64,000 bases of DNA from Bdellovibrionales bacterium (GTDB lineage: Bacteria > Bdellovibrionota > Bdellovibrionia > Bdellovibrionales > UBA1609): assembly GCA_027459485.1 (NCBI GenBank), contig DAIDIG010000001.1:1-64000 (forward strand), read 5' to 3'. A program made the position numbers and the translations under genes. The notes beneath the pieces were generated by a model. That model worked only from the letters and a program-made list of their open reading frames with translations, was not told the origin of the DNA and did not search any database. Position 1 is the first letter of the stretch. The number at the start of each line of letters is the position of its first letter. Shown here piece after piece: positions 44,072 through 56,656 of this stretch.

Positions 44072-45406
44072 TTATGCCGCGGATTTTTGCGCGCCGATGA
44101 GACTACTGAATTCGGCCGCTAATTTCTCTGACTCGCCCAACATTTGATGGGGATGCGCTTGGTCAGTCGCAAGGCCGAGCAGTAGATGGGTCACCTGACC
44201 CGATGAATTCTTCACCGGTTGCACGAGTATGCACTTCGGTAAATCTTTGAACCCCCACTCTTTAAAGAAATCAGTATTGGCGGGTGTTTCAACGACATGA
44301 CCCAAGTACGGCTGCCCTGTGCGAAAGGCGATACGAAACGCGCTCGGCGGATTCAAGTTCCATACTTTTTTTGCACGGTCGCTTTGCGGACGAAAGCTTT
44401 CGTTCCAAATGATCGGTAAAAAATTATCTTTCGATATTTCGATGATCATCGAGCCGCTGAATTTCGTCGCCATACTTGAAAGAAATTGCGTGTGAAATCT
44501 CGTCACGGTACTCGTAGTAGTGCCTACGGATGGTTCGTTGGCACCCGATTCCTTCCGTTTGGGCACCACGGTTAACGTCGGCGGTTCAGAAAGCCCGGCG
44601 GGTCCTTTGTTCAGGGGCAAATTCGACGGAGCATCGAACCCGACTGGGGCATTCATAGTGTCGTCGCCAATTATGACATCGGCCGGTGCAACTTCGACAG
44701 GTGCCAGAGCATCCGCCGCGAGTTCCAGTGGGTCCGGCGAAATCGTAAGAGGATCGGCTGCTGTTACAGCTGGCGCCGAGGCAAGTGGATCCGGAATCGG
44801 TGCCGCGACGACAGAATCCCCGGTCGCGTTCGATAAATTGAGAAATCCGTCGGGGGCGAGCGTTTCTTCATCGTTCAAGACCGGCGTGGGCGGCGCTTTG
44901 AAAGCTGTTAACGTTAATCCGCTCGGCTCATCGGCCAGCAATGCTGGCGGCTCGGCCTCGGATGTCTGTTTATCCGGTGTGGGAGGGATGGATGCGAACG
45001 ATCGCTCCTCGGTCATCACAAGCGTCTGCCAGAATTGTTTTAAGTCTTTTGCTGACGCGAGTACCTGTTGAACCGGAAAGCTCCACTTCACATCCGTCGG
45101 CTCGACGCAGGCGATGTAAACGACATTGTCCCATTGTGCGATCGGGACCATGGCGGCCGACCAATTGGCGACGCCTTGAATAGCGGTCCACAATTCGGTG
45201 GATGCGCCTTGGGCGAAAAACTCCGGTCCAAGCGATGGGAGGCCGTAATAATCGCGAGCCCAAGCCGTGTACTCATCCTGCGGGATGCGGCCCGTTTGCA
45301 GGCACCAAAATGTAAAAGATTCGTCAGCCGGAGCTTCGCTCAGCCAAGATTGGTATTTTTCAGCGGAAATTTTAAGGCCCGAAACCCAGTCTTTGACAGT
45401 TTTCAT
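44072..45406 (-). CDS. Three-part protein: MshEN-like N-terminus, linker, GAF-like C-terminus
   Basis: A 444-residue protein with no signal peptide. Residues about 20-135 weakly resemble the MshEN/T2SSE-N fold (AWARDYYGLPSLGPEFF, AAMVPIAQWDNVVYIACVEPTD). Residues about 135-300 are an Ala/Pro/Asp-rich low-complexity linker. Residues about 305-444 resemble a GAF or sensor domain (FSGSMIIEISKDNFLPIIWN, CILVQPVKNSSGQVTHLLLGLA). If the first match is right, it could sense a nucleotide such as c-di-GMP. This is a weak reading by eye. Convergent with tsaE. Confidence 0.55.
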   Translation of the reverse strand: MKTVKDWVSGLKISAEKYQSWLSEAPADESFTFWCLQTGRIPQDEYTAWARDYYGLPSLGPEFFAQGASTELWTAIQGVANWSAAMVPIAQWDNVVYIACVEPTDVKWSFPVQQVLASAKDLKQFWQTLVMTEERSFASIPPTPDKQTSEAEPPALLADEPSGLTLTAFKAPPTPVLNDEETLAPDGFLNLSNATGDSVVAAPIPDPLASAPAVTAADPLTISPDPLELAADALAPVEVAPADVIIGDDTMNAPVGFDAPSNLPLNKGPAGLSEPPTLTVVPKRKESGANEPSVGTTTSTVTRFHTQFLSSMATKFSGSMIIEISKDNFLPIIWNESFRPQSDRAKKVWNLNPPSAFRIAFRTGQPYLGHVVETPANTDFFKEWGFKDLPKCILVQPVKNSSGQVTHLLLGLATDQAHPHQMLGESEKLAAEFSSLIGAQKSAA

Positions 45407-46738: not shown

Positions 46739-47828
46739 AGCTACGAAACGCAAACCGCGGGTACTGGTTGCCATGTCGGGCGGGGTCGACAGTTCAGTCG
46801 CCGCCGCTGTGCTTTGCGAACAAGGTTACGACGTCATCGGCGTTACGATGCAGGTGTGGGATTATTCATCGAGCCATTGCGCGATCGAAGAAGGCAACGG
46901 CACGTGTTGCTCGAGCCTCGATGTGGACGACGCTCGATCTGTCGCGGATCGGCTGGGGATTCCGTTTTATGTCATCAATTGCGAAGACAAATTTAAAACG
47001 ACCGTCATCGACGACTTTGTTGGCAGATACCTGAAAGGCGAGACGCCGATCCCCTGTGTGAATTGCAATACGTTTTTAAAATTCGATCATTTGTTGATGA
47101 AGATGCGCGAATTACAATGCGATTTTTTGGCGACCGGGCATTATGCGCGAATCGAAGAGCGAAGCGGTGAGCCGGTGATCGTGACAAGCGAAGATTCGTG
47201 GAAGGATCAGACCTACTTTCTCTTCACGCTCAATCGCGATATTTTAAAGCATTTACTGTTCCCGATCGGCGGTTGGCAAAAGCCGGAGGTTCGAGCTTAC
47301 GCCGAAAAAATCGGTCTACCAGTCGCGCGAAAAAAAGACTCAACGGGAATTTGCTTTATAGGCAAGAAAAACAGCTACGCGAGTTTTATCGAGTCGCAAG
47401 TTCCCTCGCAAAAGTTAAAACCCGGTGTCATCCGTCGCTATCCGACCGGCGAATTTTTGGCCGAACACAAAGGCATTCACCATTTTACGATCGGGCAGCG
47501 CAAAGGTTTCGGCATCGCCGTCGGCCAGCCGATATACGTCGTAAAAATCGACGCTGAAACGGCGACTGTCTGGATGGGCGATGAGTCGCATCTACTTTCA
47601 TCGCGGGTGGATGTTCACGGAGTGAATTGGCTCTCTGACGTCAAAGATGGCGAATCATTGCGCGTGAAAATTCGTTATGCTCATAGCGGTGCTGATGCGG
47701 TTGTCCGAATTCACGACCGCGATTGTGTCGAACTGCAATTCAACGAACCGCAGAGAGCCGTGACGCGCGGGCAGGCGGCGGTCTTTTATCGAGATCATGA
47801 TCTTTTGGGTGGCGGATGGATTCGATAG
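46725..47828 (+). CDS. mnmA: tRNA-specific 2-thiouridylase
   Basis: A 367-residue enzyme placing sulfur at U34 of Lys, Glu and Gln tRNAs. The PP-loop is VAMSGGVDSS, the nucleophile Cys is in PCVNCNTFLKF, and the persulfide Cys is in DSTGICFIGKKN. The frame opens at 46683, but ATG at 46725 has GAGGGT and starts at the family N-terminus. It overlaps the desulfurase gene and, by 13 bases, mtaB. Confidence 0.96.
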   Translation: MSGLEATKRKPRVLVAMSGGVDSSVAAAVLCEQGYDVIGVTMQVWDYSSSHCAIEEGNGTCCSSLDVDDARSVADRLGIPFYVINCEDKFKTTVIDDFVGRYLKGETPIPCVNCNTFLKFDHLLMKMRELQCDFLATGHYARIEERSGEPVIVTSEDSWKDQTYFLFTLNRDILKHLLFPIGGWQKPEVRAYAEKIGLPVARKKDSTGICFIGKKNSYASFIESQVPSQKLKPGVIRRYPTGEFLAEHKGIHHFTIGQRKGFGIAVGQPIYVVKIDAETATVWMGDESHLLSSRVDVHGVNWLSDVKDGESLRVKIRYAHSGADAVVRIHDRDCVELQFNEPQRAVTRGQAAVFYRDHDLLGGGWIR

Positions 47829-49174
47829 AATTCTCGAAACCATCGACCGCAGCTCATGATGTGACGTTTCAGCTGGCAACGTTCGGTTGCAAAGTGAACA
47901 CTTATGACTCGGGCTTACTCGAGGCTCGACTCCAAAAAGGCGGTTTTTCAGCGCACCTTGAGAGCGCGCGGTCAAATGAGGCAGGGCCCCGCCCGATTGT
48001 GCATATCTTGAACAGCTGTGCCGTGACGGGAGAAGCCACACAAGAAGCGATACGCCAAGCGCGCAAGTTAAAACGAGAAGACCCGAATTGTTTGGTGGTC
48101 ATGACTGGATGCGCGGCGCAAGTCGATACAGATAAATTAGTTGAACAACCCGCGATTGACCTGATTGTTGCCAACTCCCACAAAACAAATATTGTAGACC
48201 TAATTAGACAAAGCTTGGATGCGAAAAGAGCGCTGGGCGAGCCGATCGGTCGCGTGCATAAGTCAAATATTTTTAAGCACGACGACTTGGGCGCGGGCGG
48301 GGGGCTAGAGTCGTCCCATACTCGAGCCTATTTAAAGATTCAAGACGGCTGCAACAGTTTTTGCACATTTTGCGTAATCCCGTTCGCAAGGGGTAAAAGC
48401 CGTTCGTTGCCAATCGAAGATTTGCGCCGGCGCACCAATGAACTTTTGGCCGAAGGCGCTCGTGAAATCGTTTTGACCGGTGTTCACATCGGCGACTACG
48501 AATTCGGGCTTGAAAACTTGATTGAGGATTTACTTCTTCGAACGCGCGTACCAAGACTGCGCCTGACGAGCCTCGAACCGATTGAACTGAGCGATCGTCT
48601 TCTCGAATTGTACGCCGACCCCCGGCTTTGCCCTCATTTTCACATGAGTATACAAAGCGCATCGACATCCGTTTTGCACCGGATGAAGCGCAAATATAGT
48701 TCAAGCGAGGTGATTACGGCGTTACATAACATTTATGCGCGCATTCCGAGCGCGTTTGTTGGTATGGACGTGATTGCCGGCTTCCCCGCTGAGTCAGAAG
48801 CAGAGTTTGCCGACACCTATGGGCGTTTAGTCGAATCGCCATGGACTCGTCTACACGTGTTTCCGTACAGCGAGCGGCCGGGTACCTATGCCGCGCGCCT
48901 TAAAGACAAAGTAGACCCAGTGACGATCGCCCGGCGGGCGAGTCGTTTGCGAGAGCTCAGCCGCGAGCGCTATTTGGCGAAAGCCAACGAGCAAATCGGA
49001 TCTACAAAGAAAGTGCTGGTTCTTAGAAACGGCAAAGGTCTCACGCGTGACTATTGGAATATAGAACTCACTTCGGCGTCGACCTCGAATTGCGAGGTCG
49101 CAGTGCGTGTGACCGGCCTTTCGATTACAGCCGGCGGAGTTGAGGCTCCGCCGCTGATTGGCGAGTTGGCTTAG
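47816..49174 (+). CDS. mtaB: tRNA t6A37 methylthiotransferase (MtaB type)
   Basis: A 452-residue radical SAM methylthiotransferase. The N-terminal UPF0004 domain has three Cys, in TFGCKVNTYDS, LNSCAVTGEA and VMTGCAAQVD. The radical SAM cluster is CNSFCTFCVIPFARGKSRS. A short TRAM-like C-terminus follows. It converts t6A37 to ms2t6A37. It ends the desulfurase-mnmA-mtaB set and overlaps the convergent AAA+ gene by four bases. Confidence 0.93.
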   Translation: MDSIEFSKPSTAAHDVTFQLATFGCKVNTYDSGLLEARLQKGGFSAHLESARSNEAGPRPIVHILNSCAVTGEATQEAIRQARKLKREDPNCLVVMTGCAAQVDTDKLVEQPAIDLIVANSHKTNIVDLIRQSLDAKRALGEPIGRVHKSNIFKHDDLGAGGGLESSHTRAYLKIQDGCNSFCTFCVIPFARGKSRSLPIEDLRRRTNELLAEGAREIVLTGVHIGDYEFGLENLIEDLLLRTRVPRLRLTSLEPIELSDRLLELYADPRLCPHFHMSIQSASTSVLHRMKRKYSSSEVITALHNIYARIPSAFVGMDVIAGFPAESEAEFADTYGRLVESPWTRLHVFPYSERPGTYAARLKDKVDPVTIARRASRLRELSRERYLAKANEQIGSTKKVLVLRNGKGLTRDYWNIELTSASTSNCEVAVRVTGLSITAGGVEAPPLIGELA

Positions 49175-51111
49175 GTGTTACTACCTGGTGGCGGTGTGGG
49201 CGGAAGTGCGATCGTACGCGACATCAAATATTCAAAGTATCGAACGACGTAGTTGGGCGTTTGGTAAGCCGGTCCCACTTTTGCTTGGAGATGCGCTAGG
49301 TATTTGCCGGACTCCGTCAGCGCCGATGCGAGCATACCATAAAGTGCTTTTTTGTTTGAGTCGCGAATAAACGTCAGTCTGCGCATGCCGTAAGTTACAA
49401 TGGTTAAATAATACGGCTCGAGCGTTAAACTTGAGTCCGCAGACCGAAGTTCTGCGCCGTCTCTTCGCATCAGTTCGATGGTCACTTCGCTGTTTTTATA
49501 ACCGCAATGTGGGACGACTTTTGGCATTCTCTCAAGAAAATCGCTCAACACTTGATCAGAATAGTAAGGCGCAGTTCGCGAGTAGCTCGCCATCTTTGCG
49601 AGCTTGATGCAATCGTTGGCCTCGTTCAAATTTTGTAAAAACATTTTATAGTGCGCTTGATTACGAACTTCGCTGAAATCGTAAATCAGATTATCAAAGC
49701 CGTCGCCGTTAAGTTGGCCGTCATTTCTAGGTGTGTTTTTAGCGGGACCCAAGGCCTTTTGACTGACGGCGTAAGTATCGTCGGCCTCATTCGGATCTTT
49801 TGGCATTTCCGGTGCTGGAATATTCGGGCCATAAAATTCTTTATACAGCTCAATCTGCTTTTCCCACGTCCATCCGTGTAGGACGCGATGAAAGGTAAGC
49901 CGTTGACCGTCATCAGATACCTTAACGTCCACGACATCGCCGGCCTTAAGATCACCCGATCCGATTAGATTTTCGAGGGGCTTGGTTATCAGTTTTTCAA
50001 CAAGACGGCGAATGCTTCGCCCACCCATCGTTGGGTCAAACCCTTTATCAAGCAGGTATGCGCGAGCTTGTGGCGTAACATTAAACAGTATGCGCGCATT
50101 TTCGTTTTCGTTAGCGAAAAAACTCTCGCGTTGGGCCGCTGCCAGTCGCATGTTGAGAATCTGTTCAGCATCGGACCTTGTTGTCGGCAGAAAGACAAAC
50201 GTGTCTTCGATACGATTTCGAAATTCGGGCGAAAGCCCGTCTGATATCGCGCTCAGAGTGACACCAGTAAGATCTTGATCGAGCTTCTCTTCAACTGATG
50301 TCGGCACAAAACCTATGAATTTATTTTGGCTGTGCAGAATATCTTGCATCTGGCCCTGGCCAAGGTTCGTGGTCATAACAAAAATGGTGTGAGAAAAATC
50401 GAGAGTCGGATTATCTTTACCCGACAAAGTCATCTTACCTTTTTCCAAAGCGCCAAGAAGAAGCCGTTTCAGGTCATCGTGGGCTTTCTCTAGCTCATCC
50501 ACTAGTACGATGTTTACTTTGTAGACCGGGCTTGTTCGTGAATCGAGAACCTCTTGCGTTATGAGAGTGGCGTCGCCGTGGCCTATATAACTTGGTGGTG
50601 CACCAAGCAAGCGAGTTGTCATATGCCCCTGCTGCATTTCACCGCAATCAATCGTAGTGACATCGTCTTTATTTAGGCCGATGGCTTGTGCTAATGCGAG
50701 CGGCGATTCAGATTTGCCGGTTCCGGTAATGCCACCGAGTAGAAACACTCCTGCCGGGCGCTTTGGGTCTTTTGTGCCGAGAGCCGCGCTTTGCACGGCA
50801 AGCGCAAAAGCGCGCTTCATATCATCGTGCCCTATCAGGTATTTGCCCATGTTTGCATAAACCGTCTGTGCGATAGGACCAAGTTTGTTGGCATTGAGTT
50901 CGCCTTGTGGATTCGCAAAAAACTGCGGCCCGTTCGGCTCGTTCTTATCGATCATTTTCGCCGCTTTTTCTTGCAATTGTTCAGAGGTGAGCCCGCCGGT
51001 CATCAGTATGGATGAACAGTCTTGAGCGGCCTCGGCGAACGCGGCCTTGATGCGATAGCCCGATAAAAACGTGAAACAAACAGCAGCCAATACCCAGTTT
51101 TTTTGTGACAT
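49171..51111 (-). CDS. ClpB-type AAA+ ATPase with an export-like N-terminus
   Basis: A 646-residue protein. Residues about 6-26 are hydrophobic and end AAFA, like a signal peptide, though RIK follows the core. Residues about 75-410 match a single HSP100 (ClpA/ClpB D2) AAA+ module: Walker A GGITGTGKS (126-134), pore loop GAPPSYIG with Tyr175, Walker B LVDELEKAH with Asp205 and Glu206, sensor-1 Asn249, Arg fingers 298 and 300, and sensor-2 GGR (363-365). Residues 415-646 are unassigned. ATG at 51111 has AAGGGG at nine bases; ATG at 51120 touches that site. Confidence 0.78.
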   Translation of the reverse strand: MSQKNWVLAAVCFTFLSGYRIKAAFAEAAQDCSSILMTGGLTSEQLQEKAAKMIDKNEPNGPQFFANPQGELNANKLGPIAQTVYANMGKYLIGHDDMKRAFALAVQSAALGTKDPKRPAGVFLLGGITGTGKSESPLALAQAIGLNKDDVTTIDCGEMQQGHMTTRLLGAPPSYIGHGDATLITQEVLDSRTSPVYKVNIVLVDELEKAHDDLKRLLLGALEKGKMTLSGKDNPTLDFSHTIFVMTTNLGQGQMQDILHSQNKFIGFVPTSVEEKLDQDLTGVTLSAISDGLSPEFRNRIEDTFVFLPTTRSDAEQILNMRLAAAQRESFFANENENARILFNVTPQARAYLLDKGFDPTMGGRSIRRLVEKLITKPLENLIGSGDLKAGDVVDVKVSDDGQRLTFHRVLHGWTWEKQIELYKEFYGPNIPAPEMPKDPNEADDTYAVSQKALGPAKNTPRNDGQLNGDGFDNLIYDFSEVRNQAHYKMFLQNLNEANDCIKLAKMASYSRTAPYYSDQVLSDFLERMPKVVPHCGYKNSEVTIELMRRDGAELRSADSSLTLEPYYLTIVTYGMRRLTFIRDSNKKALYGMLASALTESGKYLAHLQAKVGPAYQTPNYVVRYFEYLMSRTIALPPTPPPGSNT

Positions 51112-51217
51112 GCGAGACATCCCCTTTTTAAGAAAGGCAAGTTTAAGGAGTTCGATGTTAGCAAAACAATATTGAAAATTTACAAACAGCAGAACGAGGG
51201 CCTATGGGGGATCGGTC

Positions 51218-51256: not shown

Positions 51257-51367
51257 TCGATTTGAGGCAACCTTATAAGATAGGCTTATACATTCCCAAT
51301 TTTGTGATCTGCGATGGATTGCACGAAGTTGACGCACAGCTTAATCGCTGATACAACCGCCCGTACA

Positions 51368-52111
51368 ATGGAAATGAAACTGGCTGAACTTCTGCGGGCA
51401 CGTTTCGGTTATACGTTTATTAAGCCGGAGCTACTTGAGCAGGCAATGACTCATAAAAGTTATCATCATGAAATCCGCGAGAAATCTCGCGGTGATAACG
51501 AGCGCTTCGAACTTTTAGGCGATGCCGTTCTCGATCTCGCGCTGACCGCAGATCTTATGGATCGTTTTCCCGATCAAACGGAAGGGGAGCTTTCAAAGAT
51601 GCGCGCGAGTCTTGTAAACGAGGCTGTCTTGGCCGAGATAGCGAAGGAACTCACGATCGATCACGAATTGCGCCTTGGCAAAGGTGAGCGGCAGACCGGA
51701 GGCGCTTCGAAACCACGATTGCTCGCCTGCGGGCTGGAGGCGCTGTTTGGGGCTCTATTTCTTGATGGCCAATATGCGGCTGCGGCTGATTGTATTCGAG
51801 AAATTTTTAAATCGCGAGTCGATCAGCTCGATCTCACGACGCACTTTCGTGGCGACTACAAAACCCGTTTGCAAGAGCGATTACAAATGAGCCAGCGGCG
51901 AACTCCCTGCTACGAAATTGAGAAAGAAGAGGGCCCGGATCACGATAAGACCTTTCATGTGCTGCTTCGCTTGGGCCCGGATGTATTCGCTCGTGGGAGC
52001 GGTCGAAGTAAAAAACAAGCCGAACAAGAAGCGGCTCGGTTGGCGCTACTCGCGCTTGAAAACGGGCCAAACGGTGACGATCTCGCCGGTTACGCGCAGG
52101 GCGAGTTATGA
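51368..52111 (+). CDS. rnc: Ribonuclease III
   Basis: A 247-residue double-strand-specific RNase. The catalytic motif is DNERFELLGDAVLDL, followed by TEGELSKMRASLVNE and ALFGALFLDG. The C-terminal dsRNA-binding domain runs from about residue 175 (DYKTRLQERLQ to SKKQAEQEAARLAL). The frame opens at 51314; ATG at 51368 or 51374 starts the family N-terminus. It processes rRNA and regulates mRNAs. era overlaps its stop by four bases. Confidence 0.96.
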   Translation: MEMKLAELLRARFGYTFIKPELLEQAMTHKSYHHEIREKSRGDNERFELLGDAVLDLALTADLMDRFPDQTEGELSKMRASLVNEAVLAEIAKELTIDHELRLGKGERQTGGASKPRLLACGLEALFGALFLDGQYAAAADCIREIFKSRVDQLDLTTHFRGDYKTRLQERLQMSQRRTPCYEIEKEEGPDHDKTFHVLLRLGPDVFARGSGRSKKQAEQEAARLALLALENGPNGDDLAGYAQGEL

Positions 52112-55717: not shown

Positions 55718-56527
55718 CTAAAAATTAATTCCGAGAATCCCGAGATAGGTGATAATCGCGCCGTTCGGGTAGATGCCTGTGTGAATCGTTCCGTTGTTGA
55801 GAGTGATTTCTGAATACTGATCGGGAAAGTTCACCATCTGGTACATGGCTTGGCCGCCGATGAACATCTCGCGACGCAAGATCGGAATCTCGAAACCGGC
55901 GCCGGCGTCAAACGCCACAGCGCTTTGCGTGGTGAATTCGGATTCGCCGCTGACGGTGGATGTACGCGTGATCGGCGAAAAGCCTGCAATCACATAGGGG
56001 TTGAAATTGGCGAGACCTTTTTTGACATCGTCCATGTTGAAATAATATTTTAAGTCGAGACCAATTTCGTTGAATGTGACGTTGCCTTTCGCGGTTTGCC
56101 CGCCGCCGCTCACGACAATCGAGTGCGAGCTTGTGGTGTACGATATTTGAAGCGCGAAGCGCAGGTCAAAAAAGTACGAAAGGTACCCGCCGTAGGCGAC
56201 GCTGTCGCTGTACATCTGCTTAAATCCGTTGGTGAAGGTGCGCCCGCCCACGAGTAGTGCCGCCGTCAACAACCGACCGTTTTCAAAGAAATTGATATCG
56301 GCTTCTTCGTCGCCGCTGTTGTCGTATTCATTGTAATCGATGAACGGATCATAAGCGTCGTCCGAATCACTGTCGGTGGTCTGGCCGCCGCTTTGATCCG
56401 ACGTGGCTGCGGCGTTCGAACCGTCGCCGGTGTCGTCAGCCCAAGCGTGTCTCGAAATGAGACTTACAGCTCCGCTTGCAATGAGTAGTAAAGTCAGAAA
56501 AAATATGCGGAAAGAATAATGTTTCAA
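55718..56527 (-). CDS. Outer-membrane beta-barrel protein with an acidic N-terminus
   Basis: A 269-residue protein. The signal peptide (about residues 1-31) ends HAWAD. Residues about 30-75 are an acidic Asp/Ser/Gly-rich linker. The rest alternates hydrophobic and polar residues as in an outer-membrane barrel (LLTAALLVGGRTFTNGF, GGYLSYFFDLRFALQIS, LKYYFNMDD) and ends in a terminal Phe. TTG at 56527 has GGGGGA five bases upstream; an ATG at 56551 lacks a ribosome-binding site. Confidence 0.75.
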   Translation of the reverse strand: MKHYSFRIFFLTLLLIASGAVSLISRHAWADDTGDGSNAAATSDQSGGQTTDSDSDDAYDPFIDYNEYDNSGDEEADINFFENGRLLTAALLVGGRTFTNGFKQMYSDSVAYGGYLSYFFDLRFALQISYTTSSHSIVVSGGGQTAKGNVTFNEIGLDLKYYFNMDDVKKGLANFNPYVIAGFSPITRTSTVSGESEFTTQSAVAFDAGAGFEIPILRREMFIGGQAMYQMVNFPDQYSEITLNNGTIHTGIYPNGAIITYLGILGINF

Positions 56528-56656
56528 AAATCCCCCAAAGCCGGTACCCATATTCTAATACAAAAAGAGCGCCAATGGAGCCACCCCAATTGGGCCATTG
56601 TACGCGTTTGGAGCTCACTGACTCCTCATTTCTATGAGAAGAAACGCCCAATCTTT

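Follow-up and report, generated by a model that had tools for sequence, protein, structure and literature searches.

The Plasmodium protein HSP101, a component of PTEX, is an HSP100 that reaches the compartment at the boundary between parasite and host by means of a signal sequence. Mitochondrial CLPB/SKD3, with its ankyrin repeats and mitochondrial presequence, works in the intermembrane space, a compartment that has ATP. The i-AAA protease likewise acts outside the matrix. ATP is thought to be scarce outside the cytoplasm, and the bacterial envelope is generally regarded as free of ATP-driven chaperones and unfoldases. Torsins have neither the Arg finger nor the aromatic pore loops, and they depend on LAP1/LULL1 (PMC5425593, PMC7175109).

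We analyzed a gene of a Bdellovibrionales bacterium (GCA_027459485.1) located in a stretch of 64,000 nucleotides of contig DAIDIG010000001.1, referred to as the window. The sequence-only reading had proposed that it encodes a D2-type AAA+ ATPase with a signal-peptide-like N-terminus, and this observation as a whole was confirmed by the sequence and by an orthologue. The features of the locus are as follows, with residue numbers given for the 646-residue form (3 higher in the 649-residue numbering).

49171-51111, minus strand: coding sequence of the single-D2 AAA+ protein, predicted to be exported (open reading frame and translation; 646 aa, stop included)
51121-51126, minus strand: Shine-Dalgarno-like AAGGGG, 9 nt before the ATG at 51111 (sequence)
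51034-51111, minus strand: predicted signal peptide, residues 1-26 (MSQKNWVLAAVCFTFLSGYRIKAAFA, followed by E; heuristic score 8.6, inferred cut)
51016-51018, minus strand: Cys32 in DCSSIL, the first Cys of the predicted mature protein (SCSTIL in the orthologue, with a Cys nearby in relatives)
50203-50760, minus strand: AAA+ large domain (Pfam AAA_2), residues 118-303 (Pfam)
50710-50733, minus strand: Walker A GITGTGKS, residues 127-134 (motif)
50575-50604, minus strand: pore loop GAPPSYIGHG, with Tyr175 at the position of the Clp D2 GYVG (alignment with ClpA and ClpB)
50494-50514, minus strand: Walker B region, ending in D205 and E206 (IVLVDE; motif)
50212-50229, minus strand: Arg-finger motif PEFRNR, residues 295-300 (alignment)
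49924-50166, minus strand: ClpB_D2-small domain, residues 316-396, containing sensor-2 GGR365 (Pfam)
49174-49878, minus strand: C-terminal orphan tail, residues 412-646 (Pfam and comparison with the orthologue)
47816-49174, plus strand: MtaB-like gene, convergent neighbour with a 4-nt overlap (same neighbour in the orthologue's genome)
51314-52111, plus strand: rnc (RNase III), divergent neighbour, followed by era and der (same order in the orthologue's genome)

Judged by its sequence, the window protein is a single Clp/HSP100 D2-type AAA+ module, and every sequence feature tested for was found. Pfam AAA_2 matched positions 121-306 (649-residue numbering; E = 1.2e-27, 97.5 bits against a cut-off of 27) and ClpB_D2-small matched positions 319-399 in the same numbering (1.6e-11, 44.5 bits against a cut-off of 21.9). 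Both sensors, N249 and GGR365, were present, and the pore-loop Tyr was also identified in the proteins P0002 and P0003, with Leu in P0004. The D2-type module read from the letters alone was upheld by Pfam, NCBIfam and PDB comparisons, and its intact Walker A and B motifs, sensors and Arg finger by alignment and motif comparison. PDB matches, both by sequence and by fold search, were to the D2 of Clp, ClpB and ClpC, and the AlphaFold model was good for about residues 78-430 and poor, with low confidence, for the tail. The best NCBIfam model was ClpB, matched over its D2 part only (564-849 of 853) with 171.8 bits against an equivalog cut-off of 1232.1; since D2 alone is matched and the N-domain, D1 and middle domain are absent, the window protein is not ClpB as defined.

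Compared with the D2 ring of ClpB, ClpA and ClpC, the window protein has the same large and small domains and the same Walker, sensor, Arg-finger and pore-loop residues at 26-31% identity, but it consists of one AAA+ ring without an N-domain or D1, with a predicted signal peptide before it and the orphan tail after it. It shares the single D2-type module with CLPB/SKD3, which was among the PDB matches, and differs from HSP101, which has two rings, is part of a translocon and is eukaryotic. With TorsinA and other torsins it has in common a single Clp-like AAA+ module, and its predicted signal peptide would direct it, as the signal sequence does torsins, to a non-cytosolic compartment. However, it has both the Arg finger and the aromatic pore loop and is therefore not a torsin, so the torsin parallel drawn by the sequence-only reading stands for the predicted location and falls for mechanism. 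The window protein had no match to Pfam Torsin, and no torsin was found among the PDB matches listed for it or for the second AAA+ module of the M41-fused proteases described below; 2 other loci, L040 and L042, pass the Pfam Torsin cut-off. The tripeptide IGF was identified at residues 266-268, in the ClpP-loop region, and also in P0004. This is suggestive, but no exported partner of the ClpP type was found: the one canonical ClpP encoded by the genome carries no signal peptide, and a second match is SppA-like.

The ATG at 51111 is the best-supported start, with AAGGGG 9 nt upstream, and yields the 646-residue protein; an alternative ATG is present upstream at 51120. The gene stands alone between housekeeping genes, and nothing around it hinted at a function. 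A syntenic orthologue, 55-61% identical to the window protein, is encoded in G005, a genome of the same genus. There the gene is divided between two contig ends and flanked by rnc-era-der and mtaB-mnmA-cysteine desulfurase. Elsewhere in the window, positions 55718-56551, close to the AAA+ locus, encode a predicted signal-peptide protein resembling an outer-membrane beta-barrel, and positions 44072-45406 encode a protein of 444 aa with a long Pro/Ala-rich stretch.

The C-terminal 236 residues had no Pfam match, and a scan of 140 genomes of the order returned no homologue of them except for 43 residues that overlap marginally with the orthologue, which ends near window residue 459 and does not have the last ~190 residues. 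Codon use was compatible with a coding as well as a noncoding tail. The tail is thus an orphan addition, and the earlier remark that some 230 C-terminal residues resemble nothing recognizable was correct for both the Pfam search and this genome scan.

Signal peptides were called with a home-made heuristic, which is not a substitute for SignalP. In the window protein, the cut is uncertain (between IKA and AF by the heuristic, between AFA and EA by eye), and the signal peptide is not the cleanest, with RIK preceding AAFA; no hydrophobic segment follows it. The orthologue (L034:3969) starts with MQTRSPLQSVMVVLWAILTMLLWNPIVHA followed by DQ, a textbook signal peptide with a predicted cut between VHA and DQ and without RIK. 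Since the orthologue has this clearer signal peptide and no RIK, export is favoured, and since it retains the signal peptide as well as the AAA+ module, chance is ruled out. The signal-peptide-like character of the N-terminus is therefore substantiated by the heuristic score and by the syntenic orthologue. Further, the N-terminus was not lost in the homologues checked: in addition to the orthologue, 3 distant single-module relatives, P0003 of G002 (MAG Bdellovibrionales bacterium HKST-UBA16, of the same genus as the window genome) and P0004 and L049:3935-5203, both of G032, have signal-peptide-like N-termini. The gene of the G002 relative adjoins 3 genes encoding predicted signal-peptide proteins. 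Predicted n-, h- and c-regions and a putative SPase I site, kept in homologues, are all present, as would be expected for Sec export. A CxxLL-like motif within ~30 residues of the predicted cut was found in 7 of 123 signal-peptide proteins, a non-random sample, against 0.6% of inner windows, and the loci with this motif include window position 51016, L042:7471 and L152:12904.

We surveyed D2-like AAA+ proteins of Bdellovibrionota at loci picked by similarity of the AAA+ module and not by their N-termini, with duplicates removed, except that 1 gene of G004 (seen in L027 and L062) was counted twice. A first contig scan with the window protein as query gave no match. Among 66 noncanonical Clp-D2-like open reading frames with a readable N-terminus, 50 had a signal peptide predicted by the heuristic. 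Of 21 canonical ClpA, ClpB and ClpX proteins, none had one when read from the start that was chosen, and 1 had one when read from an alternative start. The background rate in window genes was 11 of 44, membrane proteins included. A later membrane-like segment was found among the tagged proteins in L051 only and was borderline. The 16 proteins left untagged by the heuristic include several that are cut or masked at the start, some that are misassigned (among the set are 1 divergent ClpA and 1 response regulator) and some that are probably cytosolic; L049 lies just below the threshold, and L042 has a long n-region skipped by the heuristic. A few look truly cytosolic, including 3 Clp/ClpX-like proteins (L236, L237) on a 209-kb second contig, possibly a plasmid, of the Bdellovibrio-like genome G062. 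Complete Bdellovibrio-like genomes (genus g32) encode mostly ClpA, ClpB and ClpX only. Because the predicted exported AAA+ proteins are mostly absent from these genomes, their occurrence is patchy, and they are neither core to nor needed for predation as such.

Many of the tagged relatives are proteins of 1,100-1,600 residues with a predicted signal peptide, 2 or 3 AAA+ modules and a C-terminal M41 peptidase. FtsH and i-AAA likewise join AAA+ and M41, but these relatives have 2 or 3 AAA+ modules, a predicted signal peptide and no second membrane segment, and the window protein differs from FtsH and i-AAA in having no protease domain. The window genome encodes one such AAA+-AAA+-M41 protease (L107:6773-10219, the same as L038, on its contig C13) of 1148 aa, with a GTG start and a predicted signal peptide ending AMA before DQ, as well as another predicted exported AAA+ protein with 2 P-loops (L088:3509-6184, 891 aa). 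The protease gene is divergent from L107:10558-14703, which encodes a predicted signal-peptide protein of 1381 aa. A search of 291 genomes of the phylum with the L039 protein as query identified about 30 clear long relatives in many families, and named relatives of this M41 class include MAGs of Bdellovibrionales, Bdellovibrionaceae and Oligoflexia. In the class alignment, the Walker A motif and the Walker B catalytic Glu were invariant in each of the two modules, as were the sensor Asn, the Arg finger and the zinc motif HEAxH; in the first module, the position of the Walker B Asp was occupied by either Asp or Asn. The invariance of these catalytic residues suggests selection for hydrolysis.

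The same architecture was identified without a signal peptide in 2 cultured Alphaproteobacteria, Rhodoblastus acidophilus DSM 137 and Roseiarcus fermentans DSM 24875, and the tag is therefore not simply part of the fold. The alphaproteobacterial loci (L146:5023-8862 and L148:5080-8913) may reflect lateral transfer. In a tree of D2 modules, the window clade and Clp D2 were split from the M41 class with a support of 0.955, and the window protein grouped near Clp D2 with other single-module proteins predicted to be exported, with low supports inside the window clade; the split is consistent with export having arisen more than once. In G032, near two predicted exported Clp-D2 proteins on contig C11, we identified a SpoVR+DUF444(VWA) fusion with an N-terminal hydrophobic stretch (L037:4792-8352) and a PrkA-like protein, below the Pfam cut-off, with a hydrophobic stretch ending in AHGQ (L049:5591-8353). 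Both have provisional start sites, and exported versions of this cytosolic stress set would be odd.

We favour the reading, with a probability of roughly 0.6, that the window protein is a Sec-exported threading unfoldase that would use ATP outside the cytoplasm. It has the features of a threading unfoldase and no protease domain. The signal peptide would direct this single-ring Clp/HSP100 D2-type ATPase through Sec, most likely to the periplasm, where it would be cleaved; the AAA+ protein would probably form a hexamer, and proteins would be threaded through the hexamer pore with ATP. The substrates may be envelope proteins to be unfolded or disaggregated, or proteins of the prey should the organism be predatory. 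We infer export and cleavage, the hexamer, ATP use outside the cytoplasm and the substrates from the protein's features and its relatives. A protein that starts later and stays in the cytosol, its signal peptide being an artefact of start choice, is very improbable: an ATG does exist at 51003, but it has no ribosome site, unlike the ATG at 51111 with its good one, and the orthologue retains the hydrophobic N-terminus with a ribosome site of its own. The N-terminus could also be an uncleaved N-out anchor holding a cytosolic AAA+ domain at the inner membrane, as the sequence-only reading had suggested as an alternative, since the hydrophobic core of the window protein is followed by RIK and a cytosolic location would solve the problem of ATP. 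However, the orthologue has no RIK and ends its N-terminus in VHA before DQ, the n-region is positive and the site AxA-like in P0003 and most of the larger proteins, as in typical N-in signal peptides, and the same orientation would be needed again in about 50 proteins. RIK being absent from the orthologue and the n-regions being net positive, an anchor is weakened as an alternative, and we consider it unlikely.

ATP supply is the weak point of reading the window protein as a periplasmic unfoldase. The earlier statement that the periplasm lacks ATP was too strong, as a review (PMC7432876) cites a measured steady-state level of periplasmic ATP in E. coli. A Tlc ATP/ADP translocase as the source of ATP gave one weak partial match in 140 genomes and none in the window genome. 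If ATP is indeed scarce outside, an exported protein might serve as a nucleotide-binding scaffold or sensor or stand idle, and in the relative L049:3935-5203 the Walker B motif is indeed degraded (FDKID) and Walker A reads GKD where GKS/T would be expected; yet the window motifs are all intact and the catalytic residues of the M41 class are invariant, which would be unexpected without hydrolysis, and we hold such a role to be about as unlikely as the anchor. Still less likely is a protein that crosses both membranes to act in another cell or a prey compartment where ATP is available. Predators do occur in the lineage, and the ATP transport system that Ruby & McCabe (1986, cited in PMC4834554) reported for B. 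bacteriovorus 109J implies contact with external ATP, but neither a signal for secretion across the outer membrane nor an effector domain was identified in the protein, and complete Bdellovibrio-like genomes are mostly without such proteins.

The interpretation given by the sequence-only reading is thus partly supported: export is favoured, the torsin comparison holds only for the predicted location, and the ATP-free periplasm was too strong a statement. That the protein is one of many AAA+ proteins of the lineage with predicted export, AAA+-M41 proteases among them, was beyond the reach of that reading. In the open-access literature, we found no published account of exported AAA+ proteins in Bdellovibrio or of periplasmic AAA+ proteins, which is weak evidence of novelty, and the main text of a paper on the B. 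bacteriovorus predation proteome does not mention AAA, FtsH or Clp. The presence of tagged unfolding motors across the phylum suggests an unrecognised, ATP-driven handling of proteins outside the cytoplasm. We tentatively propose, at somewhat short of even odds, that Bdellovibrionota have a system of extracytoplasmic ATP-dependent unfolding and degradation formed by exported Clp-D2 unfoldases and AAA+-AAA+-M41 proteases, which would need a source of ATP in the envelope and which, in 1 genome, may possibly include exported PrkA-like and SpoVR/DUF444 proteins. Clp-like AAA+ proteins that bear export tags and keep their catalytic residues, some of them fused to M41, make the assumption of an envelope without unfoldases directly testable. 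If the proposal is true, the periplasm would have an energy economy of a new kind, and bacteria would have a counterpart of torsins, in place although not in mechanism.
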